Shown: in pieces, positions 14,580-34,361 of the stretch | How the letters are laid out: every line of letters begins with the position of its first letter | Position numbering within the stretch: position 1 is the first letter of the stretch | From: Brachybacterium sp. P6-10-X1 | GTDB taxonomy: Bacteria; Actinomycetota; Actinomycetes; Actinomycetales; Dermabacteraceae | Assembly: GCF_001969445.1 (NCBI RefSeq) | Contig: NZ_CP017297.1 | Span: 2,976,001-3,040,000 of the forward strand | Length of the DNA stretch: 64,000 nucleotides | Reading direction: 5' to 3' | Made by a program: the position numbers and the translations under genes | The notes under the pieces: model-generated | What the model was told of the DNA's origin: nothing | Seen by the model: the letters and a program-made list of their open reading frames with translations, nothing else | The model's database searches: none

Positions 14580-14629
14580 GCAGACCTCCTGAGTTCCGGT
14601 ACACGTCGTCGACTCCGCGACACTTTCGA

Positions 14630-14640
14630 TAGTCTAGCTA
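14630..14640. promoter_or_regulatory. Putative MarR operator in the hemH promoter
   Basis: TAGTCTAGCTA matches TAGCCTGGCTA at 23297-23307 in front of crtE at 9 of 11 positions, in the same orientation on the plus strand. It overlaps a -10-like TAGACT in the hemH direction. Sharing with crtE suggests joint repression. Confidence 0.5.
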
Positions 14641-14688
14641 ATGATATGTGAGCGTGCCTGGTAGGGCATGAGGCTGAGGCCCGATGCG

Positions 14689-15891: not shown

Positions 15892-17479
15892 GGTCGCGGC
15901 TCCTCCGATGGTCGTGGTCGACGGATCCGCCCCAGCACGCCCCGCCGCAGTAGGCCGCGCATCGGGGGAGAGATGATCTCGTGCCCGGTGACCCCCAGGC
16001 GTGCAGGAGCTCGTTGGCTGCGAGGAATCCGGTGGTGGCGGCGCGTTCCATGAGGGCTACCGGGTAATCGCACACGATGCGGTCCCCGGCGAGCACCAGG
16101 CCCGTCAGCGGCGTGACGACGCCCGGTTGCCGTCTGCGGGGTTCGGGATCGACCAGGGCGCAGTCGTCATCGACCCGGAGCTCCTCGGCGATGATGGCGA
16201 GGCCGGTGGTCTCCGGATACACGGCGCGCAGATCCGCGAGCAGCAGGCGGCGGATCCGGGCCGGGTCCGCCGTTCGCGGGTCGTGGTCGGCATCGAGGGC
16301 GTAGGCATGCAGCTCGAGGACGGAGCCGCTGTGGTCCTCGCTCCACCGGCGGGCGCCCTGCTCGTAGCGCTCCAGGACGGTGACGTTGTCGAGCACCGTG
16401 TACCCGCTGGTGCCGCAGAAGGCCTGGCGGGAGGGATCGACGTGGCCGTCGAGCCACAGGCGCAGCACGGCGAACGGCGGCGCGTTGCGCTGATGGGCGA
16501 TGTCGCGCTGCCATGTCCGCACAGCGTCTGCATCCGGGGCGGACGCCGCGGAGTCGGGATCGAGCTGTGCGACCAGATCGCGGGTGGTGCGCGGGTCCGT
16601 GGCGAGGACCACGGCGTCGGCGTCGAGGTCGCCGTCCTCGGACGCGACGCACCAGCCGGCGGGCCGTTGCGTCACGGAGGTGACTCGCGCCGAGGTCCGG
16701 ATGGACACCCCGAGGTGCGCGAGGTGCTCGCCCAGAGGCGCCCACAGCGTGGTGTCGTAATCGTCGGCGGGAACGTCGAAGAGGAGTCCTTCGCGGGATC
16801 CGACGAAGTAGGTGTGGAACATCGCCACGAGTTCTCCGGCGGCGAAGTCCTCGGGATGCGCGAAGAAGGAGCGGGCGAACACCTCCAGGGCCAGGTGCCG
16901 TGCGCCGCGAGGGAAGCGGAGCCGGTCGAGGAACTGCGCGGCCGAGACGCCGTCGAAGCGGGAATGGCTCGACGGGAAGTCCACGTCGATCAGCTCGAGC
17001 GCGGTGCGGAGGTCGATGTCGGCCAGCGCACGCAGCGGGAAGCTGGGGCTGCGCAGGACGAAGCCGGCGAGGTTCCACGGCGGCGTGCGCGGGATCGCCG
17101 CGAAGGAGTCGACGAGCCCGTCGGCGCGCTGCAGGGGGTAATCGACGATCGGCACGAGACGGGAGAGCTCCGGGTCGACGCGGCGGAGCAGGGACCGCAG
17201 GTTGTAGTACTGGCGGAAGAAGGCGTGGAAGCCGCGGCTCATGGTGCGGCCGTCGTCGAGGGGCCAGGCGGCGACGCGTCCGCCGAGCCGGTCGGTCGCC
17301 TCCTGGACGGTGACCTCGACACCTCGTTCGGCGAGGGCGGTCGCGGCGGTGAGTCCGGCGATGCCGCCGCCGATCACGGCGACCGATCGTGGGCGCGCCG
17401 GAGCGGACAGCCCGGGCCGCGGGGGGATGCGGACGACGTGGGGGTCCCGCGGCCCGGGGACGGCATCCTCAGTCCTCAT
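15888..17479 (-). CDS. crtU: CrtU carotenoid desaturase/methyltransferase, frameshifted near C-terminus
   Basis: Converts beta-ionone rings of beta-carotene to phi aromatic rings (isorenieratene synthase family). The FAD motif is VIGGGIAGLTAA, and GFHAFFRQYYNLRSLL is a CrtU signature. ATG 17479 has AGGAGG 5 nt upstream and overlaps the methyltransferase end. The conserved ending is split: the first frame gives ANELLHAWG, while the typical continuation GVTGHEIISPP is one base out of frame. The break lies in a run of five C (15992-15996, plus strand). Adding one base restores a ~530-residue protein whose TGA overlaps the P450 start. As read, the frame runs on to 15668 through P450 DNA. Sequencing error and true mutation are both possible. 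Confidence 0.88.
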
Positions 17480-18215
17480 CGGGGCCTCCTGGTGCACGGG
17501 CTGTGTAGGTGTGCAGGATCCCTCGGTGCCAACCACGACCGGTGCGGACAGCGACCTCCTCGAAGCCCGCCTCGAGGAGCCGGCGCCGGAACCGGGCGGT
17601 CGAGTCGTTGTCGCGGACGGAGTGCCACAGGTACCGGTAGAGACCGGGATCGGCGCCGACGATCCGGCTGAGAGGGATGACGATCAGCCAGCAGACGAGG
17701 CTCCACACGACCCGGGCGCGCAGGGACTCGCGGACCGAGTAGTCGTGCACGACCAGACGTCCGCCCGGTCGCAGGCGGGTGGAGATATGCGCCAGGGCTG
17801 CATCGCGAGCATCGGGAGCGAGGTTCCGGAAGAGGTACGCGGCGAAGATCCCGTTCGGCTGCTCCTGGAGAGCAGGTTCGGGATGCGTCGAGAGCTCTTC
17901 CACATCGCCGGTCACGAAGTGCGTGGTCGACGGCCAGGACTTGATGCGAGCCCGCGCGAGCATGCCCGCAGAGGCATCCAGGCCCGTCACGCGCGCCGTC
18001 GGCATCGCGCGCAGCAGGGCGCGGGTGCTGAGCCCAGAGCCGCAGCCGAGGTCCCAGATCCGGGGCGGAGGGCCCGCATCGTGGTCCCGCCCGCGTCCGA
18101 TCCCGGCGGCGAGATCCTCGGCCGCTTCGCGCAGCTCGCGCCGGTAGCCGGGGTTCAGCCCGGTCAGGAGGTCGTACCGTCGGGCACTGCGGGTGAAGGC
18201 GTCACTCAGCGTCAT
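17469..18215 (-). CDS. SAM-dependent methyltransferase in crt operon
   Basis: A 248-residue class I methyltransferase of the UbiE/COQ5 type. Motif I is IWDLGCGSGLSTRAL (about residue 55), followed by VTGLDASAGML, and LRPGGRLVVHDYSV marks the later core. It overlaps crtYd by 14 nt and crtU by 11 nt. Streptomyces griseus has a methyltransferase-like gene, crtT, in a comparable crtY-T-U arrangement, so this may be its counterpart. It may modify the carotenoid or an associated quinone; substrate unproven. Confidence 0.85.
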   Translation of the reverse strand: MTLSDAFTRSARRYDLLTGLNPGYRRELREAAEDLAAGIGRGRDHDAGPPPRIWDLGCGSGLSTRALLRAMPTARVTGLDASAGMLARARIKSWPSTTHFVTGDVEELSTHPEPALQEQPNGIFAAYLFRNLAPDARDAALAHISTRLRPGGRLVVHDYSVRESLRARVVWSLVCWLIVIPLSRIVGADPGLYRYLWHSVRDNDSTARFRRRLLEAGFEEVAVRTGRGWHRGILHTYTARAPGGPDED

Positions 18216-18534
18216 CGTCAGCCCCTCGCCGGTTCTTCAGGTGCTGCCAGACCATGATCGTCAGAGTCATCATGGCGAACCCGAATCCGAAGTCCTCGAT
18301 CGGGATCTCCCAGGGGAAACGGATACCGAGGAACTCGTCCGGATGGTAGATGACGATGGGTGCGGAGAGCTTCGTGAGCCACCCGTCGACGGGGATCTGG
18401 AAGGCCAGGCAGATCGCCATGGCGAGCCAGTAGGCGGGCCGGCGGAAGATGCCGGTGCGGAGCACGAGCAGCTCGAGCAGGACGACCAGGAGGATCCCGA
18501 GGACCGTGAGCACGGTGTATTCAGGAATGTCCAT
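18202..18534 (-). CDS. crtYd: Lycopene beta-cyclase subunit CrtYd
   Basis: A 110-residue membrane protein, one half of the heterodimeric actinobacterial lycopene cyclase. It has about three hydrophobic helices and the motif FPWEIPIEDFGFGF, where PxE(E/D) acidic residues belong to the active site. ATG 18534 shares one base with the crtYc stop (TGATG), so translation is coupled to its partner. Together the two subunits form beta-rings on lycopene, giving beta-carotene. Confidence 0.9.
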   Translation of the reverse strand: MDIPEYTVLTVLGILLVVLLELLVLRTGIFRRPAYWLAMAICLAFQIPVDGWLTKLSAPIVIYHPDEFLGIRFPWEIPIEDFGFGFAMMTLTIMVWQHLKNRRGADDDAE

Positions 18535-18878
18535 CACTGCGTCCTCCGTCGATCCGCGAGGCGGCGGCGTGCGATCCGCAGGACGGTCTCGACGCCCTCG
18601 TAGCTCAGGAGGGCGGCGAGGGGGATGACCACGAAGAAGACCAGCTCCTCGAGCGGCAGCGGGCCGATCATCACCCCGGTCATGTACGCGCTGTCGTACG
18701 TCCAATGCTCACGGACGATCCCGAGGACGTCCCAGAGACCGAAGACGAGCACGACGACGAGGATCGTCGGCAGGAGCAGACGCCATCGCCGGTAGACCCG
18801 GGCGCGGAGGACGAACTCGAGGGGCAGCGTGATCGCGACGCACGCACCCATCAGGAGCAGGTACTGGAACTCGGTCAT
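18534..18878 (-). CDS. crtYc: Lycopene beta-cyclase subunit CrtYc
   Basis: A 114-residue membrane protein, partner of CrtYd. It has three hydrophobic segments and the family motifs FGLWDVLGI and PLPLEELVFF, with the two adjacent Glu residues of the cyclase active site. ATG 18878 overlaps the crtI stop as ATGA. Size and order match other actinobacterial crtYc-crtYd pairs. Confidence 0.92.
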   Translation of the reverse strand: MTEFQYLLLMGACVAITLPLEFVLRARVYRRWRLLLPTILVVVLVFGLWDVLGIVREHWTYDSAYMTGVMIGPLPLEELVFFVVIPLAALLSYEGVETVLRIARRRLADRRRTQ

Positions 18879-20500
18879 GACCGTATGGTGCCCTCCGACG
18901 AGGGACGGTGGGAGGGACGTCGAGGCATGGGCGTGCGCGACGGGGAGGGTGAGTCATCCCCCCGCAGGCGTTCGACGAGTACCTCGGCGCTGATCAGGCA
19001 CATGGGCAGTCCGATGCCCGGGATCGTGGACGACCCGGCGTAGTAGAGCGCGTCCACGCGGCGGGAGACGTTCCCGGCGCGGAAGAAGGCGCTCTGGCGG
19101 AGAGTATGGGCCGGGCCCAGGATGCCGCCGCGCCAGGCACCGAGATCGTCGCGGAAGTCGGCCGGCCCGACGGTGCGGCGCACCACCACGCGGTCGGGGA
19201 GATCACCGACGCCGGCCCACCGTCCGAGCTGCTCGATCGCCTCATCGGCGAGGCGCTCCACAGCGCCGGCCCCCGCGCCGTCCACCCCGCCGTGCCCCAG
19301 CGCTGGGTCCGCCGGCGCCGGTACCAGCAGGAACAGATTCTCGTGACCGGGTGGAGCGACCGAGGAGTCCGTGGCCGACGGCTTGCACACGTACGTCGAT
19401 GCCGGCGAGGGGACGCGACCGTCGGCGATCGCCCCGAAGTTCGCGGCCCAGTCCCGAGTGAACAGGAGGGTGTGGTGGGGCAGCTGCGGCAGCTCCCCGC
19501 GGATGCCGAGCATCACCAGGACGCCGCCCGGGCTGCTGGTGCGCCGCCGCCACCACGACTCGGGGTACGTCTGCAGGCGGCGCGGCAGCAGGGTGGTCTC
19601 GACGTGGTGCAGATCGGCGGTCGCGACGACGACGTCGGCGTCCAGCGTCCGGGTCTCACCCTCGGGATCGCGCACCTGCACACCGCGGGCCGTCGCGCGG
19701 GCCCGGCCGCGCCGCCCGGTCGCGGTGACGATGCGTGTGGCCGCGGTGCCCGCATGCAGGCGCGCCCCGGAGGCGCGGGCCAGGTCGACCATGGCGTCGA
19801 TGAGAGTGGCGAACCCGCCGTGCGGGTACTGCACCCCGCCGGTCAGGTCCAGGGAGCTCATGAGGTGGTAGAGGCTCGGCGTCCGGTCCGGTGAGGAGCC
19901 GAGGAACACCGCGGGATAGCCGAGGATCTGTCGGAGGCGGGGATCGTGGAAGCGCCGCGCGACGAGCGACTCGAGCGGCTCCAGCAACAGCTGCAGGAGG
20001 CGCGGCGCCTGGCGGACGACCTCGGTCGACAGGAAGGGCCGCACGGAGTCGAACGAGGTGTAGAGGAAGCGTTCGACAGCGATGTCGTAGGTGCGCCGAG
20101 CGGAGTCGAGGTAGCGCTCCAACTGCTGACCGGCACCCGGCTCGATCGCCTCGAAGCGCTCCATGTTCTCGGTCGCCGATGCGCTGATGTCGATCGGATC
20201 GGGGTGCCCCTCGAAGAAGACGCGATATCCGGGGTCGAGCCGCTCGAGGTCGAGCTGCTCGGCGGCGGACGTGCCCAGCAGGTGGAAGAAGTGGTCGAAC
20301 ACCTCGGGCATCAGGTACCAGGAGGGGCCGGTGTCGAACCGGAAACCATCCCGCTGCCAGCGCCCTGCCCGGCCGCCGAACTCGTCGCGGGCCTCGACCA
20401 GGTCGACGTCGTAGCCCTCACGGGCCAGGAGCGCCGCGGAGGCGAGCCCGGAGACGCCACCCCCGATGATCACGACCGAGCGTCCGGAATCACGACTCAT
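18875..20500 (-). CDS. crtI: Phytoene desaturase
   Basis: FAD-dependent desaturase converting phytoene to lycopene. The 541-residue protein starts with the dinucleotide motif VVIIGGGVSGLASAALLA and the GGRAGRWQ..GFRFDTGPSW block. The C-terminal signature contains YYAGSSTIPGIGLPMCLISA, typical of CrtI. It overlaps crtB upstream and crtYc downstream by 4 nt each. Confidence 0.95.
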   Translation of the reverse strand: MSRDSGRSVVIIGGGVSGLASAALLAREGYDVDLVEARDEFGGRAGRWQRDGFRFDTGPSWYLMPEVFDHFFHLLGTSAAEQLDLERLDPGYRVFFEGHPDPIDISASATENMERFEAIEPGAGQQLERYLDSARRTYDIAVERFLYTSFDSVRPFLSTEVVRQAPRLLQLLLEPLESLVARRFHDPRLRQILGYPAVFLGSSPDRTPSLYHLMSSLDLTGGVQYPHGGFATLIDAMVDLARASGARLHAGTAATRIVTATGRRGRARATARGVQVRDPEGETRTLDADVVVATADLHHVETTLLPRRLQTYPESWWRRRTSSPGGVLVMLGIRGELPQLPHHTLLFTRDWAANFGAIADGRVPSPASTYVCKPSATDSSVAPPGHENLFLLVPAPADPALGHGGVDGAGAGAVERLADEAIEQLGRWAGVGDLPDRVVVRRTVGPADFRDDLGAWRGGILGPAHTLRQSAFFRAGNVSRRVDALYYAGSSTIPGIGLPMCLISAEVLVERLRGDDSPSPSRTPMPRRPSHRPSSEGTIRS

Positions 20501-21363
20501 CCGGTTCTCCTGGTCAGGGCGCGGGCGAGGATCCAGGCCTTCTGGGTGTCGGGCACCCGGATGCGGCGACGTCCGATCTCCGCGGCAGGAGTGGCGCGCA
20601 AGCGGTCCGCGAGGGCGCAGTACAGGCCGTGCGCGGCGCTGACCGCCCGCCGGCTGCTGAGGGGAAGCTCCCCGATGGCGGCGTCCGCGGCCGCCAGATC
20701 GGCGTCGATGTCCTCCAGCAGGACGTCACGGTCGGCGTCCGTGAAGGTGCTCCGGTCGATCCCGGGGAAGTATGCGCGCCCGAGCAGCTCCTCGTCGTCG
20801 GCGAGATCGCGCAGGAAGTTGACCTTCTGGAAGGCCGCTCCGAGCCGACGGGCGCCGGGTCGCAGGTGCTCGTAAGCCTGCGGATCGCCCTCGACGAAGG
20901 CGCACAGACACATGAGGCCGACGACCTCGGCGGATCCGTAGATGTACTCCGACAGGCTCTCCGCGGTGTGCGGGCGCGGAGACAGGTCCCGTCGCATCGA
21001 GGTGAAGAACGGCGAGACCAGCTCGTCGCCGATCCCGCACCGTCGTGCCGTCAGCGCGAACGCATGGACCACCAGATTCGCGCTCCGTCCCTGCGTCAGC
21101 GCACGCCCGGTCTCCTGCTCGAACCCGTCCAGCAGCTCGGCACGCAGCGACGGCGTGAGTCGCGGATCGGGGTCGTCGACGATCTCGTCCGCCACGCGGA
21201 CCAGCGCGTAAGTGCTGCGCACGTGCGTCCGGACCGGTTCGTCCAAGAGTCTCGACGCCCAGCCGAAGGAGGTCGAGTACCCGGCGATGACTCGCCCCGA
21301 CGCCTCCTGGGCGACCCGGTCGTACCGCGTGAGAGCGGGGAAGGGGCTGCGGCGCGCACTCAT
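20497..21363 (-). CDS. crtB: Phytoene synthase
   Basis: Condenses two geranylgeranyl diphosphates to phytoene. The 288-residue product has the two Asp-rich substrate-Mg motifs, RVADEIVDDP (about residue 62) and NFLRDLADDEELLGRAYFP (about residue 180), the second being the trans-prenyltransferase signature. ATG 21363 overlaps the tspO stop as ATGA and the end overlaps crtI. Confidence 0.94.
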   Translation of the reverse strand: MSARRSPFPALTRYDRVAQEASGRVIAGYSTSFGWASRLLDEPVRTHVRSTYALVRVADEIVDDPDPRLTPSLRAELLDGFEQETGRALTQGRSANLVVHAFALTARRCGIGDELVSPFFTSMRRDLSPRPHTAESLSEYIYGSAEVVGLMCLCAFVEGDPQAYEHLRPGARRLGAAFQKVNFLRDLADDEELLGRAYFPGIDRSTFTDADRDVLLEDIDADLAAADAAIGELPLSSRRAVSAAHGLYCALADRLRATPAAEIGRRRIRVPDTQKAWILARALTRRTG

Positions 21364-22169
21364 CCGGCCACCGTGCTCCGGGACCTGCGCAACTGCCGCA
21401 CAGCCGCGACGACCGTGGCCGCGCCGACGACAACCGCGACGATGGTGGCCGCTGTCGCGGTGATCGGTGAGTGCGGCTCACCGGCACTGCGAGCGACCGC
21501 GATCCACCCGATCCCCCACGAGATGGCGACGGGGGCCGCGATCGCCCCCCGCCCGGAGGAGGCGAGAGCGATTCCGACCCCTCCGGCGACGGCGAGCACG
21601 AGCACCGCCAACCACTCCGGGTGACCGAGGTCCGGCGCCCCGGCTCCGACCAGAGCGGCGGTGATGTTCGCACACGTCGCCACGCTGACCCAGCCGAGGT
21701 AGAGGCCGAAGGTGCCGTCGACCACGAGCAGCTCCAGCGGTCCGCGGGCGGGGGCCTTCGAGGCGCGCTGGAAGAGCACGGCGAGGACGACCACCAGCAG
21801 GACGATCATCGGCACGGTGAGGCCGACCCGACCCGCCTGGACCAGCAGGATCCACGCGGCATTGAGCAGCAGGGAGGCGATGGCGGGCCCGGCCACGCGC
21901 CGCTCGTCGGCTCGGTCCCACCACTGCCACAGCGTGTACGCTCCCAGCGCCGCATAGATGACGGTCCAGATCGAGAAGGCGGGGCCGGCAGGAGCGATCA
22001 GGGTGGCATCGCTGGCCAGGAGCCCGTCGGCGGCCTCGGAGATCGACACGCCCCCGAGGGCTCCGGCGCCGATGGCGGACCCTACGATCGCGACGACGAA
22101 GCTCGCGGTCACCGCAAGACGTCGGGCGAGCGTGCGGGGTGGCGGCGAGGACGGTTCGGCACGTGTCAT
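21360..22169 (-). CDS. tspO: TspO/MBR-family tryptophan-rich sensory protein
   Basis: A 269-residue integral membrane protein with several helices and the TspO-like FSIWTVIYAALGAYTLWQWW region. It is longer than the ~160-residue bacterial norm, with an extra pair of C-terminal helices, as in other actinobacterial members. ATG 22169 overlaps the crtE stop as ATGA. TspO proteins bind porphyrins and relate tetrapyrrole level to photo-oxidative stress; in Rhodobacter the gene (crtK) also sits among carotenoid genes. Placement between crtE and crtB here repeats that association. Confidence 0.8.
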   Translation of the reverse strand: MTRAEPSSPPPRTLARRLAVTASFVVAIVGSAIGAGALGGVSISEAADGLLASDATLIAPAGPAFSIWTVIYAALGAYTLWQWWDRADERRVAGPAIASLLLNAAWILLVQAGRVGLTVPMIVLLVVVLAVLFQRASKAPARGPLELLVVDGTFGLYLGWVSVATCANITAALVGAGAPDLGHPEWLAVLVLAVAGGVGIALASSGRGAIAAPVAISWGIGWIAVARSAGEPHSPITATAATIVAVVVGAATVVAAVRQLRRSRSTVAG

Positions 22170-23257
22170 GATGCTTCCTCCCCCACGTCTGGTACCGGCA
22201 CGAGCGCGTCCGTCGCGGTCGTGCGGATGTCGTCGACGAGGTCCGTGAGGGCGTCGGCCAGGGTCGTCGACAACCTGCTGCGCAGCGCGATCCGCAGCGC
22301 CCGGTCGAGGTAATGGTCGGCGAGATCCTGGACCGCGTCGCGTGCCCCGCACTCGGTGAGCGCCGCCCGCGCTCGCGCGGCGCCGCTGCGGTCGAGTCGA
22401 CGGTCACCGACCAAGCCGTCCAAGGCGGTCCAGGACGGCGTGGACCGCGCGTGGGCGATGAGAGCGGTGGCCTTCCCCTCGCGAAGGTCCGAGAGCGCGC
22501 TCTTGCCCGTTCGACTCTCGTCCCCGAACACCCCCAGCAGGTCGTCCAGCAGCTGGAAGCCGACCCCGAGGCAATGCCCGATCTCCCCCAGGGCGGCAAC
22601 GGTCGCCGGCGGCGCGTCGGCCAGCACGGCGGCCACGCGCAGGGGAAGCTCGAACGAGTACGAGGCCGTCTTCAGCGCGGCGACGCGCACCGTGGCGCCG
22701 ACGACGGGCTCGAGTTCGAGGCCGAGCCCGAAACGGACGTCGGCGAGCTCGCCGGTCGCCGAGGTGTGCACGGCCTCGTCGAGGAGGTCCAGCAGGCGAC
22801 CGATGATCTCCTGCTCCACGCCGCAGGTGGCGATCATGCGGGTGGCCGTCATCAGCGCGAGATCGCCGGCGAGGATCCCTGCCGCGTCGGCGTAGCGCTG
22901 CACGGAGGGCTCGGGGAGGTGACCCTCGCGGGCTTCCCCCGCGAAGGCACCGGAGACGTTCAGGCGGCCCCGACGCAGGTGGTCCCCGTCGATGACGTCG
23001 TCGTGGATCACGAACGCGGTGTGCAGCAGTTCGACCGCGGCCGCGGTCCGGGCGGCGGCCGCGGTCCGCGTGCCGCCGAGGCCCTCGTGGGTGACGAGAA
23101 GGAGGTGTGGTCGCAGTCGCTTCCCGCCCCTCAGCGCCTCGCTCACCGCGGTCCACAGTCGACGGTGATCAGCACCCAGTTCTCCGAATCGTGCAGAGCC
23201 GGTACGGATCTGCGCGTCCAGCTCGCGCTCGACCGCAGCGAGCGTCTCGTCTCCCAC
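22166..23257 (-). CDS. crtE: Geranylgeranyl diphosphate synthase
   Basis: Makes the C20 precursor for carotenoids. The 363-residue trans-prenyltransferase has the first Asp-rich motif HDDVIDGD (about residue 94) and the second DDLLGVFGDE (about residue 245); GGKRLRPHL precedes them. GTG 23257 is chosen because GGGAGG lies 4-5 nt upstream; the frame extends further upstream through the regulator region without support. It is the first gene of the overlapping crt operon, divergent from the MarR gene with the shared operator between them. Confidence 0.93.
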   Translation of the reverse strand: MGDETLAAVERELDAQIRTGSARFGELGADHRRLWTAVSEALRGGKRLRPHLLLVTHEGLGGTRTAAAARTAAAVELLHTAFVIHDDVIDGDHLRRGRLNVSGAFAGEAREGHLPEPSVQRYADAAGILAGDLALMTATRMIATCGVEQEIIGRLLDLLDEAVHTSATGELADVRFGLGLELEPVVGATVRVAALKTASYSFELPLRVAAVLADAPPATVAALGEIGHCLGVGFQLLDDLLGVFGDESRTGKSALSDLREGKATALIAHARSTPSWTALDGLVGDRRLDRSGAARARAALTECGARDAVQDLADHYLDRALRIALRSRLSTTLADALTDLVDDIRTTATDALVPVPDVGEEAS

Positions 23258-23986: not shown

Positions 23987-24047
23987 CACGTGGTGTCACC
24001 GTCCCCGACGGCCGCTCGACCGTCCGGTGCTCAACGAAGGAGTCATG

Positions 24048-24815
24048 ATGCGCACGACGACGAAGCGAATGCTCCCCCTCCTCGCGGCCACGGCCATGCT
24101 CGGCACGTTCGGGATGTCCGGCGCCGCGATGGCCGAGGGTCCCGACAGCACCTCGCTGGAGGCGAACCTGACCCAGCTGAACGATTCCGGCGCCTCCGGC
24201 ACCGCGTGGGTCACGGTCGAGGGCAACGAGGTCCACGTCAAGCTCGACAGCACGGGAATGCTCGCCGAGGCCCCGCACGCCCAGCACATCCACATCGGCG
24301 GCAAGAACCAGTGCCCCGATCCGACCATGGAGGGCACCGGGGTCGATGGCGCGATCCGCACCACCGACGCCGCGGGCGACTACGGCGGCGTCCAGGTCTC
24401 CCTGACCAAGGAGGGCGACACCAGCCCGGACAGCGCCCTGGCCGTCGAGCGGTTCCCCACCGGAGATGCGTCCTATGAGCGCACCTTCGAGGTGAGCGAC
24501 GAGGTCGCCGAGAACCTGCGCAACGGGGACGGCTCGGTGGTCCTCCACGGCGTCGACCACAACGGCAACGGCACCTATGACGGTGATCAGATGTCCGATC
24601 TGGACGAGTCCCTGCCCTCCGAGGCGACCGATCCGGCTGCCTGCGGCGCGCTCGAGATGAGCCAGATGGACGCCATGCCCGAGGGCGGCGCCGAGACCGG
24701 TGACGGCACCACCGCCGGCATCGAGAACTCCGGCGCGATGCTCGCCGGCGGAGGCCTGCTGACCGCTGCGGCGGCCGGCGCGTTCGCGCTGCGTCGTCGC
24801 CAGAGCCAGAAGTGA
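24048..24815 (+). CDS. Exported CHRD-domain protein with C-terminal anchor
   Basis: About 255 residues. The signal peptide ends around GAAMAEG (about residue 27). The CHRD-like domain carries the His cluster PHAQHIHIGG followed by a Cys (QCPDP). Near the C-terminus a Gly/Ala-rich hydrophobic stretch ends in RRRQSQK, the shape of a sortase sorting tail, but no LPXTG is present (GIENSGAML precedes it). ATG 24048 has AAGGAG 5 nt upstream; ATG 24045 is adjacent. It is first in an operon with a sortase, 1 nt apart, and is preceded by a SigK-type promoter. It may bind metal through the His cluster; this is inference. Confidence 0.82.
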   Translation: MRTTTKRMLPLLAATAMLGTFGMSGAAMAEGPDSTSLEANLTQLNDSGASGTAWVTVEGNEVHVKLDSTGMLAEAPHAQHIHIGGKNQCPDPTMEGTGVDGAIRTTDAAGDYGGVQVSLTKEGDTSPDSALAVERFPTGDASYERTFEVSDEVAENLRNGDGSVVLHGVDHNGNGTYDGDQMSDLDESLPSEATDPAACGALEMSQMDAMPEGGAETGDGTTAGIENSGAMLAGGGLLTAAAAGAFALRRRQSQK

Positions 24816-24816
24816 T

Positions 24817-25569
24817 ATGACCCCTCGGGGATCATCCCGCCGGGGCGGCGGTCGTCGGAGGACGGCCGCCGCCCTGGCGGTCCTCGCCCTGGTCGGCGCG
24901 GCGCTGCTGGTGTTCTCGCTGACCAGTCAGGTCGGCGCACCCCCGGAGCCCGAGCTGCGCTCGTCAGCCCCCTCCGCCTCGGATGGCGGCGGCACTGACT
25001 CCGAGGACGCCACCACTGCCGCGGAGCCGTCGCCGACCCCCAGCACCGAGGCATCGGAACCCACCGAGCAGCCCAGCACCGAGGACGAGACGACCTCCGC
25101 GGTCGCGGCGCCGCTGGAGCCCTCCGAACCCACGAGCCTGCGGATCCCGTCGATCGACGTCGACGAGCAGCTCTTCCCCATCGGCCTGGGCGAGAACGGC
25201 CAGCTGCTGGCTCCCCGCGGCGACCGCGCGAACCGGCCGGCGTGGTTCGAGGGATCCCCCACGCCCGGTGAGAACGGCCCGTCGGTCATCGAGGGGCACG
25301 TGACCTGGCACGGTGATCCGTCGATCTTCTTCGATCTCGGGTCTCTGAGCACCGGCGATCGCGTCGAGGTCGAGCGCGAGGACGGCACGGTCGCGACCTT
25401 CGAGGTCTACGACGCGGCCCGCTATCCGAAGGACGATTTCCCCACCCTCGCCGTCTACGGGCGCACGGAGGGTCCGGAACTGCGATTGATCACCTGCGGC
25501 GGCGACCTCGGAGCGGACGGCCACCACCTCGACAACACCGTCGTCTTCGCCCGTTTGGTCGACAGCTGA
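24817..25569 (+). CDS. Class F sortase
   Basis: A 250-residue membrane-anchored transpeptidase or hydrolase. One N-terminal helix (about residues 16-37), a ~70-residue Ser/Thr/Glu/Pro linker, then the sortase barrel (LRIPSIDVDEQLFPIG). The catalytic His is in VIEGHVTW and the Cys in LRLITCGGD; an Arg near the end (VVFARLV) could complete the triad. It follows the CHRD gene by 1 nt and precedes PepSY by 10 nt. The natural partner is the CHRD protein, although that has no LPXTG motif. Confidence 0.88.
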   Translation: MTPRGSSRRGGGRRRTAAALAVLALVGAALLVFSLTSQVGAPPEPELRSSAPSASDGGGTDSEDATTAAEPSPTPSTEASEPTEQPSTEDETTSAVAAPLEPSEPTSLRIPSIDVDEQLFPIGLGENGQLLAPRGDRANRPAWFEGSPTPGENGPSVIEGHVTWHGDPSIFFDLGSLSTGDRVEVEREDGTVATFEVYDAARYPKDDFPTLAVYGRTEGPELRLITCGGDLGADGHHLDNTVVFARLVDS

Positions 25570-29080: not shown

Positions 29081-29635
29081 TCAGGTGCAGGACCCGTAGC
29101 CCCCACCGAGAAAGTCGAAGCCGATGGCCCATTCGTGGCTGACGGGCGGTGAGGACCATCCGCCGGGGCCGACCGCTTCGACGCTCACGTCGCCCGCCCA
29201 GGCCTGGTTCCAGCCCCCGGTGATGCCCCAGGCGACCGTGGAGGTCGTCGCCGGCACGTACGTCGGACTGTCGGCCGGGACGAGGGGGTAGCCCTCGGAC
29301 GTCTGGCCGCTGTTCCAGCCGTCGGGTGCGCCGCCGTCGACGGTGATCGTCACCAGGTACCCCGAGACCGGCAGGCCGTCCGCGGAGGTGTCCAGATGCA
29401 GCAGGTTCGGGGCCCCGTTGCGTCCTTCGCACGTGGTCACGGCCGGGGAGACCGACGCCGCGCTCGCCGTCAGGCCGGCCGTCTCCTCGGACACCCAGGC
29501 GGCATCGGTCAGCTGGGGCGCCGTGGCGTCGAGCGGGCCGGCGGCGAGACCGAAGCCCGTCGCCGTGGTGAGCACCAGTCCGGCGGTCAGCGCGAGGCGT
29601 CGGCGTCCGGTCCGTCGGGAGTCGGTGGTCGTCAT
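29081..29635 (-). CDS. Exported protein, last gene of SipW-type operon
   Basis: A 184-residue product with a twin-Arg-like charged start (TGRRRLALTAG), one hydrophobic segment, and then a DAAWVSEE region that resembles the alternate signal-peptide tail seen upstream in the operon. The remainder is a beta-rich, Gly/Trp/Tyr-rich domain with two Cys (TTCEG, YGSC at the end) that could form a disulfide. ATG 29635 overlaps the preceding stop as ATGA. Probably an exported fibre or surface component; family not recognised. Confidence 0.65.
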   Translation of the reverse strand: MTTTDSRRTGRRRLALTAGLVLTTATGFGLAAGPLDATAPQLTDAAWVSEETAGLTASAASVSPAVTTCEGRNGAPNLLHLDTSADGLPVSGYLVTITVDGGAPDGWNSGQTSEGYPLVPADSPTYVPATTSTVAWGITGGWNQAWAGDVSVEAVGPGGWSSPPVSHEWAIGFDFLGGGYGSCT

Positions 29636-30465
29636 GGTGTGCCGTCCTCGTCCTGCTCGTCGTTCCTGGTCAGTGCGCGCCGTCCCCGGTGCAGCGAGGC
29701 CCCGAGCAGCAGAATGGCTGCCGCAGCGAGCAGCCAGACGGCCACGGCCATGCCGGTGGCGGCGAGGAACCCGAGCGGCACCTGATCGGCCGGTGCGTTC
29801 CCCGAGGACCCGGTGCTCCCCGTGTCGAAGCCGCCGGATCCCGACGCGGCATCGTCGGATGTGCCGTGGGACGGACGGGTTCCCCCGGTGGAGTCCCCGG
29901 ACCCTCCGGACCCGTCGACGGAGGCTCCGCCGGATTCGTCGCCGGTGCCCCCACCCGGCGAGACGGAGAGATCGTCGCCGACTCCCCGCGCCCGCAGGCT
30001 CAGCGTGCCCGCCAGGGACTGGACGTCCTCCGCCGTCCCGTCGGGAAGGCCCACCCGGACCAGCAGCCACTGATGGTCGGTGGCCGCCTGGGAGCCGAGG
30101 TCGTAGGACCCGCCGGAGGGGGTCCCGCGGCCCTCGAGCAGGCTCGTCCCACCGGGGCACGTCGTGGAGGCCGGCCGAGCGGCGCAGGCCTCGACGCTCA
30201 CCTCGACGTGCTCGGCGAGGTCACCGCCGACCACCAGGGTCCGCGAGATGGCTCCGTCCTCGACCCCCGGAGCCGAGATCTTCACGGCCCATGCCATGGT
30301 GTCACCGGGGGCGAGGGTCTCCGCCCCGCCGGAGGTCACCGAGACCAGCTCCAGGGAGCGACCTTGCACGAGCTGCTCGGTCCCCTCGGCCCGCGCGAGC
30401 GGGGACAGGGCGAGCAGGAGGACGAAGGCGGCGACGGCGGTGGCGATCCGTCGGGTCGCGGTCAT
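29632..30465 (-). CDS. Secreted, membrane-anchored protein of SipW-type operon
   Basis: A 277-residue protein with an ordinary signal peptide (cleavage about LARAEG, residue 27), a beta-rich external domain of ~130 residues with a Cys pair, a ~75-residue Gly/Ser/Asp-rich stalk, one C-terminal helix (VWLLAAAAILLLG) and a basic tail. The anchor layout is sortase-like, but LPXTG is absent. ATG 30465 overlaps the sipW stop as ATGA. It may be a base or anchor for the SipW-processed proteins encoded upstream; this is inference. Confidence 0.7.
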   Translation of the reverse strand: MTATRRIATAVAAFVLLLALSPLARAEGTEQLVQGRSLELVSVTSGGAETLAPGDTMAWAVKISAPGVEDGAISRTLVVGGDLAEHVEVSVEACAARPASTTCPGGTSLLEGRGTPSGGSYDLGSQAATDHQWLLVRVGLPDGTAEDVQSLAGTLSLRARGVGDDLSVSPGGGTGDESGGASVDGSGGSGDSTGGTRPSHGTSDDAASGSGGFDTGSTGSSGNAPADQVPLGFLAATGMAVAVWLLAAAAILLLGASLHRGRRALTRNDEQDEDGTP

Positions 30466-31037
30466 CCCCGGCTCCTCGCCGGCGACCGGGGCCACAGGCC
30501 CCAGATGACGAACGCGGCGGCGATCATGCCCAGCGGCGCGAGCATCCTGGAGGTTCCCAGCTGCGCGACCAGCGGGGCGATGCCGGGGACGGAGAAGACC
30601 ACGCGGGAGACCTCGGTGACCTCGTACGGAGCAGGATCATCCTGCTCGTTGGCATCGCCACGCAGGGTGAGGAGACGGGCGTCCGCCCGGTCGGCATCGT
30701 CGATCGCGACCACGCGGTGGGTGACCGGGAGCTCGCCGGCCCCGCGATCCACCGTGACGATGTCTCCCTCCTCCACGTCGGCCGCCTCGATCGATCTCAC
30801 CAGGGCGGCGGAGCCCACCGGGATCGTCGGCTCCATCGACCCCGAGCTGAACAGCATCACCTGGAACCCGAGGAACGAGGTGAGCACGGCGAGGACGGCG
30901 CACAGCAGTCCGAGCGCCGCGGCGGCCCACAGGAGCACATCGCCGAGGACGCGCAGCGCACCGCGGGTGCGGTTGCGGGTGCGCGGGCGAGTGCGCCGGA
31001 GGACGGGGGTATCGGAGGTCGCGGTGGTCTGGGTCAT
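30462..31037 (-). CDS. sipW: SipW-type signal peptidase I
   Basis: A 191-residue membrane protease with an N-terminal helix (about residues 30-58), a second helix near the C-terminus (about 165-183), and the catalytic Ser in FSSGSMEPTIP. VTHRVVAI supplies His where Lys occurs in the classical enzyme, as in ER-type/SipW signal peptidases. It is encoded immediately after two proteins with alternate-type signal peptides, which are probably its substrates. Confidence 0.9.
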   Translation of the reverse strand: MTQTTATSDTPVLRRTRPRTRNRTRGALRVLGDVLLWAAAALGLLCAVLAVLTSFLGFQVMLFSSGSMEPTIPVGSAALVRSIEAADVEEGDIVTVDRGAGELPVTHRVVAIDDADRADARLLTLRGDANEQDDPAPYEVTEVSRVVFSVPGIAPLVAQLGTSRMLAPLGMIAAAFVIWGLWPRSPARSRG

Positions 31038-31081
31038 GGGGAGTCCCCTCCGTGCGGGTCCAGGTGGTCGGGGATGATCGG

Positions 31082-31747
31082 TCAGAGCTGGGAGATCGTG
31101 ACGGACAGGCCCACGGGCGAGCTCGTGCCCTGCACGTCCCCGCCGGCGTCGCCGTCACGGGGAGCGGCCACCCGCAGGTCCAGGCAGAGGCCGAGGGAGT
31201 CCTGGGCGTCCGCGCCGATCTCGGCGCTCGTCCCGTCCATCCCGGTGCCGAACACCTGATAGGAGTCCGGGCCGCCGGCGAGGTAGGTCGCCCCGGCGCT
31301 GAAGTCCGACGCGGTGCACTGGGCGATCGAGGCCTCCCGGACGACCACCCGGTACTCGAGCGCCTGGGCCAGAGCACCCTCGGCGGAGACCTCGTCGAGC
31401 TGCACCGTCCCGCCCCGGGTGGATCCCGAGGCGGTGCGGAGGTTGAGCCAGCCGTAGTGGGAATCGCCTGCGGTCGGGGCCACATAGGTCCCGCCCGGCG
31501 CGAGCCCGGTGAGGTCCGTCGCGAGGATCGCGGGATCCCCGGGGCCGTGGTGGGCCCAGTCGCTGCCGGCTGTCTGCGACTGGGTTTCGAAGGTGCCGGC
31601 GGTGAACGTGGCCGAGGCCGCCTGCGGGTCGTGCCAGGCCGCCACGGTCACGGCGCTCGCCATGCCGAGGGCGAGCCCGCCCGCCAGGAGGCCGAGCACC
31701 CTGGCGGGACGGGCCGTGCCCTCCCGGGTCTCCTGGCGCGCGGACAT
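31082..31747 (-). CDS. SipW-dependent exported protein (second)
   Basis: A 221-residue protein with a basic start, one hydrophobic helix (VLGLLAGGLALGMASAVTVA) and the alternate-signal hallmark AAWHDPQAASATFTAGTF just after it, as in TasA/CalY-type precursors. The mature part is beta-rich with two Cys. ATG 31747 shares a base with the stop of the preceding gene (TGATG). Probably a minor fibre or accessory subunit. Confidence 0.78.
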   Translation of the reverse strand: MSARQETREGTARPARVLGLLAGGLALGMASAVTVAAWHDPQAASATFTAGTFETQSQTAGSDWAHHGPGDPAILATDLTGLAPGGTYVAPTAGDSHYGWLNLRTASGSTRGGTVQLDEVSAEGALAQALEYRVVVREASIAQCTASDFSAGATYLAGGPDSYQVFGTGMDGTSAEIGADAQDSLGLCLDLRVAAPRDGDAGGDVQGTSSPVGLSVTISQL

Positions 31748-32370
31748 CAGGCCAGCGAGCTGCCCGAGGTGCCGGTCAGCGTCCAGGTGACGTCGGCCGT
31801 CTCGTTCTGCGCGAGCTCCGAGTCCGCGGTGACGGTGACCTTCAGGTACACCACTTCCTCGAGGGAGGTGAGATCGAAGATGTCGTCGTGGGTGGTCCCC
31901 CCGGTGACGGACTCCGAGCTGATCATCGTGCCGATCGTCTCCGTGGCGTCGATGTCGTTGACCTGCTGGATCGTGAAGGTCAGGTTGTCCGCGGCGGTGC
32001 CGGTCGCCGTCACGGCACCGTCCACGGTCGCCGCGTAGTCCGAGGACTGTTCCAGACGCACCGCGTACACCGCGGTGGCCGAGTCCGAGGGGGAGAGGTT
32101 GTCCGCCAGCCCGTCGAAGTCCAGCGTCAGGGGAGACTCCGGGGCGGTGGCCGCGAAGGTCTCGCCGTCGGAGCTGCTCTCGAGGGCGAAGGAACCGGCG
32201 GCGAAGCTGCCCTGGGCGGACTCGGTATCCGTCCACGACGCGAGCGTCAGGACTCCCCCGAGCCCGAGCACGAGCCCGCCGGCGGTGATCGCCAGCAGCT
32301 TGCGACGACGCTGGGAGGGCTCGCGCTCCTCGGTGATGGTCTGCGTGTTCCGGGTGTTCTCGGTGGTCAT
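31747..32370 (-). CDS. TasA/CalY-like SipW-dependent exported protein (first)
   Basis: A 207-residue product. Charged start with RRRKLLAITAGG, a hydrophobic helix, then LASWTDTESAQGSFAAGSF, the pattern of alternate signal peptides processed by SipW. The mature part is Ser/Thr/Asp-rich and beta-like without Cys, similar in size and character to CalY/TasA. It is the first gene of the five-gene operon, divergent from the response regulator. A fibre-forming matrix role is plausible from context only. Confidence 0.8.
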   Translation of the reverse strand: MTTENTRNTQTITEEREPSQRRRKLLAITAGGLVLGLGGVLTLASWTDTESAQGSFAAGSFALESSSDGETFAATAPESPLTLDFDGLADNLSPSDSATAVYAVRLEQSSDYAATVDGAVTATGTAADNLTFTIQQVNDIDATETIGTMISSESVTGGTTHDDIFDLTSLEEVVYLKVTVTADSELAQNETADVTWTLTGTSGSSLA

Positions 32371-32387
32371 GGCCCCTGCTCCGTCCT

Positions 32388-32424
32388 GCCGGTCCGTACC
32401 GGCCCTTTATGCTGGTGAGACCAG
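32388..32424. promoter_or_regulatory. Two inverted repeats in the divergent calY/regulator gap
   Basis: GCCGGTCCGTACCGGC (32388-32403; 6-4-6) and CTGGTGAGACCAG (32412-32424; 5-3-5) lie in the 156-nt gap. The second is next to an A/T-rich CCCTTTATG that could be the -10 of the minus-strand operon. They are candidate binding sites for the adjacent response regulator. Confidence 0.4.
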
Positions 32425-32526
32425 TAGGCGTCAGGAACGGCAGAGTCGTCGGCGACCGTGCGTGGAAACACGCAGATACTGTGGTGCCAGCTCCCGCGCA
32501 CCGGGCGGGATCGGGGAGGAGTGGCC

Positions 32527-33216
32527 ATGCGCAGCGGAGGTGCTGCCGGACGGCGCGCTCGTCCGCTGCGCGTGAGCGTCGTCGAGGACGAGGCGCTGAT
32601 GCGCTCGATGCTGGCCCGGACGATCGACGCAGCCGACGGGATGCGTGTCGTCCACGAGCTCGACAGCGCGGCGGCCGCGCGGCTCGCGATCTCACCGCGC
32701 AGCACGGACATCGCCCTGCTCGACGTGAACCTCGGCGACGGCAACGGCGTGAAGCTCGGCCTCGACCTGCAGAGGGCCGACCCCCGGATCGCCATCATGC
32801 TGCTGTCCAGTCTCGACGTGATGGGCCTGTTCCTGTCGGTCCAGGACGAGGTCAGCGAGCCCTGGAGCTACCTCTCCAAGCGCTCCTCCTTCACCCGGGA
32901 CGTGCTGCTCGGCGCGATCGAGGCGACCGCCGACGGCGAGACGGTCATCGATCCCAGCCTCGTGCAGCGCTCGCGCCCCCGTGCCGGGACACCGGTCGCG
33001 GGGCTCACCGCCGCACAGTTCGATGTGCTGCGGCTTGTCGCCGAAGGTCTGTCGAACGAGGCGGTCGCCGGGCGGCTGCACCTCTCCGAGCGCTCGGTGG
33101 AGAGCCATCTGCTGGCCATCTACCGCCGCCTCGGGGTCGACGGCGAGGGAGCGAACAGGCGCGTCCGCGCCGTGCTGATCTTTCTCGAGCAGACGGGCCG
33201 CACATGGCAGCGATGA
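32527..33216 (+). CDS. LuxR-family response regulator
   Basis: A 229-residue two-domain regulator. Receiver: VVEDEALM acidic pocket, phospho-Asp in ALLDVNLGDG (about residue 66), and Lys in YLSKRSSF. The C-terminal LuxR helix-turn-helix is LTAAQFDVLRLVAEGLSNEA, then ERSVESHLLAIYRRL. ATG 32527 has GGAGGAG upstream. The stop overlaps the histidine kinase start. It likely controls the divergent SipW-type operon. Confidence 0.88.
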   Translation: MRSGGAAGRRARPLRVSVVEDEALMRSMLARTIDAADGMRVVHELDSAAAARLAISPRSTDIALLDVNLGDGNGVKLGLDLQRADPRIAIMLLSSLDVMGLFLSVQDEVSEPWSYLSKRSSFTRDVLLGAIEATADGETVIDPSLVQRSRPRAGTPVAGLTAAQFDVLRLVAEGLSNEAVAGRLHLSERSVESHLLAIYRRLGVDGEGANRRVRAVLIFLEQTGRTWQR

Positions 33217-34361
33217 GGGGCCGGCGCCTGGGGGTCGTGGCCTCCGTCGGCGTGCTGAACATGGTGGGCTTCGCCGTGCTGGTCGCTGAACAGGCCATCG
33301 AGTGGAGCGCGGGGGGCCCGGCGGCCCCGCTGATCTGGTGGGTCGGAGGGGTGACCCTGGTGATCGGGCTGGTGCTGGTGGCCGCGATCCTGCTCCTCGC
33401 GGTGCTGGTCCGGCTCTGGTGGCTCCGGCTCGGTGTGGGCGTGGGCCTCGTCGTGGTCCAGGCCCTGGTGCGGACCCTGCTACTGCTTCCCGCCATCGCG
33501 GCCGACGGCGGCCCGCCGGCAGCCGTCGTGTGGGCCACGGGGATGACCGGCTATTCGGTGGCGCTCGGTGCCGGTCTCCTGGTGGGTGCGCTGCTGGTGC
33601 GTGAGGACCGGGAGCGGGAGCGACGGGAGGCGGAGGAGGGCCGGGCACGGCAGGCGATCGCGGAGCTGGAGGGAGAGGAGCTGCGCGTGCGCCGGATGGT
33701 CGCCGATCGCCTGCACGGCACCGTGCAGCATCGCCTGGTGGTCATCGCGAGCGGTCTGGACCACGCGGCCGCCGACCTCGAGGGCTCGGGCTCCGGGAGG
33801 TGGGTCCCGACGCTGCGCGAATGGGCCGCGGACCTCGACGAGCTGCGCGAGGAGCAGGTGCGCTCCCTCAGCCACAGCCTGTTCCCCTCCGGTGCCGACC
33901 TCGGCACCTACGAGGCGATCTGCGCCCTGCTGGACCGCCTGCCCACGAGCGTGGCCACCACGGTGGTCCTGGGCCCGCGGATGCGCGATATCGTGCACGA
34001 ACACGGGTCCCCGCTGCCGCTGGTGGACCGCCTGGTGGCCGTGTATGCGGTCGAGGAGGCCGTCACCAACGCGCTCAAGCACGGCAGGGCGGAGGCGGTC
34101 ACGGTCACCATCGAGATCGCGCAGGACACCGAGGCCCTCTGGATGCTCGACGTGACCGTCGACGACGACGGCTCGGGCCCGCCGGCCGGGCCGACGGTCC
34201 TCTCCGGCCTCGCCCGGCACCGCTCCCGCGCGGAGGCCCGCGGCGGATCGCTCGAGCTCACGCGGTCGCCCGTCGGTGGTGCCCGGCTCCACCTCGTGCT
34301 GCCGTTCGTCCCCGAGACCGGTCAGCCCGCCGTCGCGCCGGCCTCTCCCGGCACCGGGTAG
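33213..34361 (+). CDS. Membrane sensor histidine kinase
   Basis: A 382-residue kinase with four N-terminal helices (about residues 8-28, 40-66, 70-92, 100-122), a coiled linker rich in Glu/Arg, a HisKA_3-like H-box DRLHGTVQHRLVV, and an ATPase domain with the N-box AVEEAVTNALKHG and a DDDGSGPP loop. ATG 33213 overlaps the regulator stop (ATGA); ATG 33204 is in frame. It forms a pair with the preceding regulator. Its last 40 nt overlap the end of the opposing beta-propeller gene. Confidence 0.87.
   Translation: MRGRRLGVVASVGVLNMVGFAVLVAEQAIEWSAGGPAAPLIWWVGGVTLVIGLVLVAAILLLAVLVRLWWLRLGVGVGLVVVQALVRTLLLLPAIAADGGPPAAVVWATGMTGYSVALGAGLLVGALLVREDRERERREAEEGRARQAIAELEGEELRVRRMVADRLHGTVQHRLVVIASGLDHAAADLEGSGSGRWVPTLREWAADLDELREEQVRSLSHSLFPSGADLGTYEAICALLDRLPTSVATTVVLGPRMRDIVHEHGSPLPLVDRLVAVYAVEEAVTNALKHGRAEAVTVTIEIAQDTEALWMLDVTVDDDGSGPPAGPTVLSGLARHRSRAEARGGSLELTRSPVGGARLHLVLPFVPETGQPAVAPASPGTG

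Follow-up and report, generated by a model that had tools for sequence, protein, structure and literature searches.

A candidate TasA-type surface fibre operon with a SipW-like peptidase and a likely sortase substrate in Brachybacterium sp. P6-10-X1

Matrix fibres of the SipW/TasA type have been studied in Firmicutes, where their attachment to the wall is poorly explained. The Bacillus subtilis system is encoded by tapA-sipW-tasA and is regulated by SinR (PMC13082335); residues 28-38 of TasA fall within its N-terminal donor segment (PMC9674648), and TapA, like CapP of Bacillus cereus, is a chaperone-like partner (PMC10151520; PMC13082335). The TasA/CalY/CapP system of B. cereus combines a SipW-processed TasA-type pair with an assembly partner that has a wall-localizing part, and is called sortase-independent by its authors (PMC13082335). 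The sipW-bsaABCRSD operon of Clostridium perfringens encodes its own two-component system, BsaRS, which is required for operon expression; that paper predicts no LPXTG-like motif in BsaA and finds deletion of the neighbouring srtB to be without effect (PMC7395162). Donor-strand filaments are also known in archaea, and the paper on the archaeal thread states that sortases were not found in crenarchaea (PMC9715654). Among the matches listed in a search of open-licence papers, there was no work on actinobacterial TasA/SipW fibres or on SipW combined with sortase anchoring. Here, we analysed 64,000 nucleotides of the actinomycete Brachybacterium sp. P6-10-X1 (positions 2,976,001 to 3,040,000 of NZ_CP017297.1, hereafter the window), which sit within one 4.39 Mb contig and contain an operon of five genes, A to E, beside a divergent two-component system. 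We read this operon, with a probability of roughly 0.6, as a TasA-type surface fibre system with its own processing enzyme, sortase wall anchor and regulators. What would set it apart is protein D, a proposed sortase-anchored partner that in relatives is often fused to the peptidase and for which no counterpart is known in the well-studied Bacillus version. A preliminary description of the locus had held such systems to be known mainly from Bacillus, which the clostridial and archaeal examples show to be incomplete.

The five genes lie on the minus strand. A (31747-32370, 207 amino acids) encodes a protein with a SipW-type signal and a predicted TasA-like beta-sandwich; B (31082-31747, 221 amino acids), a second, homologous SipW-type exported protein that may be another subunit; C (30462-31037, 191 amino acids), a dedicated SipW-like signal peptidase I of the endoplasmic reticulum (ER)/archaeal type; D (29632-30465, 277 amino acids), a protein with an ordinary export signal, a Cys-paired beta-sandwich and a C-terminal sortase signal; and E (29081-29635, 184 amino acids), a third exported protein with a degenerate SipW-type signal and an invariant Cys pair. 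The TGA of A and the ATG of B have one base in common, and a four-base ATGA overlap joins C to D and D to E, so that the chaining by overlaps given in the preliminary description holds save at a 44-base gap between B and C. The LuxR-type regulator and kinase that it had placed divergently are indeed found on the plus strand (32527/32572-34361), joined to each other by an ATGA overlap. Close SipW matches (at least 67% identity over most of the protein) occur in three other genomes of the genus sample (G023, G015 and G014), in which the order kinase-regulator/A-B-C-D-E is as in the window, and a Microbacterium contig (L064) carries six of these genes as kinase-regulator/A-B-C-D, with no E called. 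As the seven genes recur in four Brachybacterium genomes and six of them in Microbacterium, the arrangement is not due to chance.

Like tapA-sipW-tasA, the operon has SipW-type signals, an ER-type peptidase and, in A, a predicted TasA fold. A and B exceed the cut-off of 19 bits set for the curated SipW-signal model TIGR04088 (32.4 and 25.0 bits); they are the two alternate-signal proteins named earlier, to which E now adds a third with a signal of similar kind. C passes the archaeal/ER-type signal peptidase model TIGR02228 (60.5 bits vs a cut-off of 51.85) and stays below the cut-off of the Bacillus SipW equivalog NF046067 (42.8 bits vs 190). SipW and the ER enzyme are of the Ser-His type, in which His replaces the Lys of the bacterial Ser-Lys type. 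The residues of C to which we assign catalytic roles are Ser67, His107 and Asp128: in an alignment of 91 proteins (85 distinct, with the window and duplicates counted), Ser67 is kept in 89, the remaining two being gaps, and His107 and Asp128 are each kept in all 91. By its sequence, C is a Ser-His-Asp signal peptidase of the ER type that is SipW-like, as had been proposed. A, B, D and E matched no model in the Pfam scan. The operon of B. subtilis includes tapA; here, general Pfam and NCBIfam scans gave no TapA match among the five operon genes, and no search aimed at TapA was made.

The sequences of A and B fall below the Pfam and NCBIfam thresholds for TasA/CalY (PF12389 and NF046066; on the latter, B scores 11.1 bits vs 450), in which they differ from their B. 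subtilis counterparts. A sequence-only profile of A searched against Protein Data Bank (PDB) chains returned four rows, all fluorescent proteins with E values of 0.7-1.8, which we rejected as chance; the fold therefore had to be compared directly. We modelled mature A with AlphaFold2 from an alignment of 66 sequences (65 of 66 references plus the window), taking S45 as the first residue by analogy with the TasA cleavage site. The model is a beta-sandwich with a mean predicted local distance difference test score (pLDDT) of 85.1 and a predicted template modelling (TM) score of 0.80. When it was searched with Foldseek against 350,542 PDB chains, the sole match at E ≤ 1e-3 was the cryo-electron microscopy structure of the TasA fibre (8aur; E 1.8e-5, probability 1.00), which was also the top row of a second aligner (Z 8.5 over 143 residues, 3.5 Å). 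The other rows included the archaeal thread of Sulfolobus (7pnb) and the bundling pili of Pyrobaculum (7ueg), both ranked below TasA, as well as type 1 and P (chaperone-usher) pilins, all of them filaments built via strand donation. These results indicate that A has a TasA-like beta-sandwich fold in its predicted model, which lends support to the surface-filament reading and makes A the proposed major fibre subunit. A TasA-like fold of the mature protein was a check that the preliminary description had suggested, and for A it came out in its favour; the outcomes it had named as contrary, mature proteins folding as monomeric enzymes or lacking export, were not seen.

Residues 1-12 of mature A have a pLDDT below 50 in the monomer model, and W2, D4, E6, G10 and F12 within this segment are invariant in the 66 aligned rows. 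A low-confidence N-terminal segment is a likeness to TasA, and its conservation fits a donor strand; it also fits plain recognition by SipW. The latter possibility would suit a different picture, in which A, B and E are TasA-fold, SipW-processed proteins that do not polymerize and instead form an adhesin or coat complex, secreted or wall-bound, with D anchored and A and B binding to it. Such a complex would suit the fold rows of D, the closest of which are domains of MSCRAMM adhesins (FnBPA with Z 9.9 across 126 residues). We consider it unlikely, as the fold of A ranks the fibre form of TasA first, followed by several donor-strand filaments, and as the first 12 residues of A find no confident place in the monomer model. 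Under the fibre reading, A and B (and probably E) would be exported by Sec and cut by C just before the conserved S/A-W-x-D strand, a position taken from the TasA cleavage site; the freed N-terminal strand of A would then enter the following subunit, as happens in TasA, and A would polymerize.

B would join the A polymer as a second subunit. An alignment of profiles with hhalign gave an A-B probability of 100 over 193 columns, the signal region included (the B alignment holds 38 of 60 references plus the window), so B is homologous to A as judged from their sequences. Two homologous subunits plus E distinguish this operon from that of B. subtilis. We also considered for A and B a covalent, sortase-built pilus of the SpaA type, whose shaft subunits have sorting signals and whose cluster includes a class C sortase, and rejected it: a full sorting signal was found in none of 206 distinct A/B/E/E2 proteins. 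A Pfam sortase search of the window's own genome gave two matches, which were classed E and F, and none of class C.

E is the Cys-pair exported protein of the preliminary description, and its alignment (41 of 46 E/E2 references plus the window) bears this out: a domain-spanning pair, C69 and C183, is invariant in all 42 sequences, together with one Trp. The layout of its signal, TDAAWVSEETAGLTASA, is like that of A and B, and most of the 42 sequences have a T-x-A-x-W signal end; the SipW-signal model matches three of them, none of which is the E of the window, and E passes no family model, TIGR04088 included. E is probably a third SipW substrate. A profile search against the PDB brought up immunoglobulin (Ig)/fibronectin type III (FnIII) folds at E 0.25-0.6, outscored by one thioesterase row, a weak indication that its fold is perhaps Ig/FnIII-like. 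Among the 58 loci that contain both A and an E-type gene, 52 have the latter downstream of A and six have it upstream. E may be a minor or tip subunit of the proposed fibre.

D had been described as a stalked membrane protein. The gene is there, but its product is more aptly seen as a likely substrate of a sortase, and both the sorting signal and the fusions to SipW had been missed. As read from its sequence, D consists of an ordinary export signal, a beta-sandwich, a Ser/Gly-rich linker, the motif LAATG, a hydrophobic helix and a basic tail. We collected relatives with a profile seeded on the ectodomain rather than on the C-terminus, and proteins classed as A or B were set aside. A full L[AP]xTG sorting signal is present in 58 of the 70 distinct D-domain proteins and in 10 of 996 other proteins at the same loci. 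Among the 12 D-domain proteins that miss the strict motif, eight are near-misses (e.g., LARSG and IARTG), one is a fusion resembling SipW-D-E (L077), and three (L048, L055 and L060) are probably not true D proteins. That fusion, a 578-amino-acid protein of [Zimmermannella] faecalis (L077:4951-6687), apparently joins SipW, a D domain and perhaps an E-like end.

In 42 of the 70 distinct proteins, D is the C-terminal half of SipW. A hydrophobic segment precedes D in these fusions, often ending in GHA-E or ARA-A, and could be an internal signal peptide; an A-x-A pattern stands before D in 42 of 42 fusions, although this proves little in stretches so rich in Ala. The fusions invite the alternative that D serves SipW as a chaperone or docking partner, its LAxTG, helix and tail acting only as a membrane anchor that holds D next to the peptidase, to which it would feed substrates, much as TapA and CapP, both chaperone-like in Bacillus (PMC10151520; PMC13082335), assist TasA/CalY. 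In keeping with this, one genome (G072, locus L111) retains D though models of both class E and general sortases find no match in it. Yet a plain membrane anchor has no need of the L[AP]xTG that 58 of 70 proteins carry, and the D of that same genome ends in a decayed LSPTG; a second genome, G079 (L133), has no class E sortase over the cut-off and a decayed motif as well. We regard a mere docking role as somewhat unlikely.

As a sortase substrate, D would be exported through its ordinary signal, cut at LAATG by a class E sortase and joined to peptidoglycan, the linkage being one that its sorting signal suggests. In the window's own genome, NF033747 picks out a class E sortase (253.5 bits vs 160), an enzyme class that prefers LAxTG. 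Among the D-bearing genomes searched, 57 of 60 (29 of 31 and 28 of 29) have a class E sortase over the cut-off, a count made on genomes other than that of L064; the general sortase model was run on eight of these genomes. Two of the three genomes without the enzyme are among the nine whose D misses the strict motif (hypergeometric P = 0.056, calculated after the fact, which is suggestive and not significant); contrary to such a link, the enzyme is present in seven genomes whose D misses the strict motif, and L130 has the motif but no class E sortase over the cut-off. The class F sortase encoded in the window (24817-25569) was also considered as the enzyme for D and set aside, because class E fits LAATG better and class F adjoins a protein of the GVDTG type.

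The proposed wall anchor is what separates the operon from the described systems. B. subtilis is not known to have a counterpart of this sortase-type anchor, which is often SipW-fused in relatives. The likeness to the B. cereus system lies in a SipW-processed pair with an assembly partner, although CapP is itself SipW-processed and anchored by a disordered C-domain (PMC13082335), whereas D combines an ordinary export signal with a sorting signal. With the C. perfringens operon the locus has in common SipW, a secreted polymer protein (here a proposed one), extra secreted proteins and a kinase and regulator at the same locus (PMC7395162), and it differs from that operon in bearing the sorting signal on a separate protein, D.

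The ectodomain of D was modelled by AlphaFold2 as a beta-sandwich with a pLDDT of 90.7, and two Cys are invariant in 52 aligned rows (51 of 52 references plus the window). Its best fold rows are staphylococcal adhesin domains (FnBPA, SdrG, SdrD and ClfA, Z 8-10), followed at about Z 8 by generic beta-sandwiches that include a diphtheria toxin domain; TasA is not among the fold matches listed for D, though the folds may still be alike. We draw no function from this ranking. MSCRAMM adhesins are LPXTG-anchored and have tandem IgG-like domains with a dock-lock-latch mechanism. Unlike them, D shows a single beta-sandwich of about 10% identity inside a SipW operon, with generic folds within two Z units. 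A D profile also pulled in A and B after three iterations, and with a D-only profile one of 90 A proteins and three of 73 B proteins came below 1e-3. We considered D as a distant copy of TasA and rejected this beyond a hint, the D-only profile being weak on the window's A (E 0.048).

D is the proposed sortase-anchored base of the fibre. Since it is made as the C-terminal half of SipW in many relatives, it would sit at the site of subunit release and tie the base of the fibre to the wall, with E as a tip or minor subunit. A narrower and more tentative version, to which we give somewhat less than even odds, is an actinomycete hybrid filament: a SipW-processed, donor-strand TasA-type fibre on a sortase-linked beta-sandwich base that is, in many species, the C-terminal half of SipW and is freed by an internal signal peptide. 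If so, subunit release, nucleation and anchoring would be coupled at one membrane site. With a likely anchor in the operon, often fused to the peptidase in a single polypeptide, it would become directly testable how a donor-strand fibre is attached to the wall, and gene families now without a Pfam match would gain a structural and functional guess.

Several points tell against the fibre reading. The TM-scores of A to TasA in Foldseek are modest (0.55 by query length and 0.41 by target) at 7% identity, and its TasA row in the second aligner counts as tied with hexosaminidase/glycosidase domains (Z 8.1) and others, so the fold was called from the results of both aligners jointly. Of the 66 aligned A proteins, only one reaches PF12389, at E 0.004, and A itself has no Pfam match. 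The strict motif is missing in 12 of 70 D-domain proteins, and one locus (L130, genome G400) has it with no class E sortase over the cut-off; class E sortases are common in these genera, so their presence is a necessary condition rather than proof. The relation of D to the subunits is weak (hhalign probability 30 for D-A and 64 for B-D), and generic folds follow closely on its adhesin rows, which makes D as strand acceptor a guess. The steps of the mechanism, from cleavage to anchoring and regulation, are all predicted ones.

The divergent genes encode a LuxR/NarL-type response regulator (start ATG 32527 or GTG 32572, end 33216), which is above the cut-offs of PF00072 and PF00196 and 84-96% identical to its orthologues at other loci, and a sensor histidine kinase (33213-34361, 382 amino acids) with HATPase_c over the cut-off. 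As read from its sequence, the kinase has a membrane part of several helices and lacks a large extracellular domain. Its H-box, LHG[TAG]VQHRL in five orthologous loci (the window included), has a Gly after the phospho-acceptor His, which is unusual for this kinase type, an acidic residue being usual. The promoter region between A and the regulator contains TGCGTGTTTCCACGCA, a palindrome (TGCGTG-TTTC-CACGCA, 32459-32474, no strand assigned) that was aligned in five loci and is a candidate regulator site. With no mismatch allowed, the pattern TGCGTGNTTCCNCGCA has a single match per genome in all four Brachybacterium genomes, always at this locus, and our claim rests on this match: if one mismatch is allowed, three of the genomes show further sites and the reversed control shows one, and with up to two mismatches the palindrome is not rarer than chance in the window. 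Three of the four genomes keep both of its arms intact, one base being changed in G015, and two bases differ in L064, both in the left arm; beyond the palindrome, the divergent promoters of L063 and L064 align poorly.

The kinase and a close orthologue of A (at least 70% identity) occur in the same 4 of 38 genomes of the genus, which fits the earlier claim that the operon has its own control. The pair might instead be a neighbour with no role in the operon, seeing that among the best 80 loci only L063 (the G014 genome) and L064 carry it, so the module usually does without a two-component system. This shared occurrence, the adjacency of kinase and A on one Microbacterium contig, the mostly conserved palindrome of the shared promoter and the control of a sipW operon by BsaRS in C. 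perfringens (PMC7395162) make a mere neighbour very unlikely. The system is an addition of the window's subtype, outside the general module. It would switch the operon on, perhaps through TGCGTGTTTCCACGCA. In C. perfringens, the regulators are inside the operon (PMC7395162), and in B. subtilis the regulator is SinR (PMC13082335), whereas here they are divergent beside it. At two loci of other families (L056 and L057), SipW stands beside a different regulator/kinase pair, as judged by translations and weak kinase matches.

Beyond the four genomes with a close A, six further genomes of the 38 have distant A relatives only (37-45% identity) and no kinase match. The A profile matched 188 relatives in public genomes, and the locus counts were made on the best 80 loci. 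A is present in 75 of these loci, B in 62, SipW in 70, the D domain in 58 and E/E2 in 47; A, B and SipW occur together in 59, and the genes usually run A, B, SipW (with or without D), E. The module is found in Microbacterium, Arthrobacter, Brevibacterium, Leucobacter, Agromyces, Brachybacterium and other genera, and in Nakamurella; almost all of these are Micrococcales, with Nakamurella outside. In 296 genomes of the phylum, a D-profile search found at least five at E ≤ 1e-5, which is a lower bound because 12 candidates per genome were scored. The genes of the relatives came from a simple codon-usage predictor, which placed some starts wrongly and misclassified a few partial genes; this is probably why four loci among the 80 (L117, L120, L127 and L138) have no classed gene, and gene calls leave out the part of two orthologue matches that cross a terminal stop codon (C in G015 and the kinase in G014). 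Duplicate genomes (e.g., L045 and L063, the latter being the genome of G014) were removed only in counts given as distinct.

Further SipW loci were observed in the genus. The window's own genome has a second one at about 2.295-2.298 Mb (L041:4899-8194), with a SipW-D fusion that carries LARTG and three SipW-signal proteins over the cut-off. The second SipW locus of G015 (L048:7826-9679) is split by a transposase-like pair of 120 and 301 amino acids, named from translations, and G017 retains only the C-terminal part of SipW together with a D that bears LASTG (L054:6742-7775), an apparent operon remnant. Elsewhere in the window, a sorting-domain protein of the GVDTG type (37.8 bits vs 29) is followed by the class F sortase (173.9 bits vs 166; 24027-25569); about 3.5 kb from the operon, they are likely a separate enzyme and substrate pair, and in G023 a gene similar to one of this region, by translation, lies close beyond E. 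Finally, 11767-23257 holds a run of genes resembling those of carotenoid synthesis, which from their translations we take to encode phytoene desaturase- and synthase-like proteins, two cyclase-like membrane proteins of 110-114 amino acids and a polyprenyl synthase-like protein.

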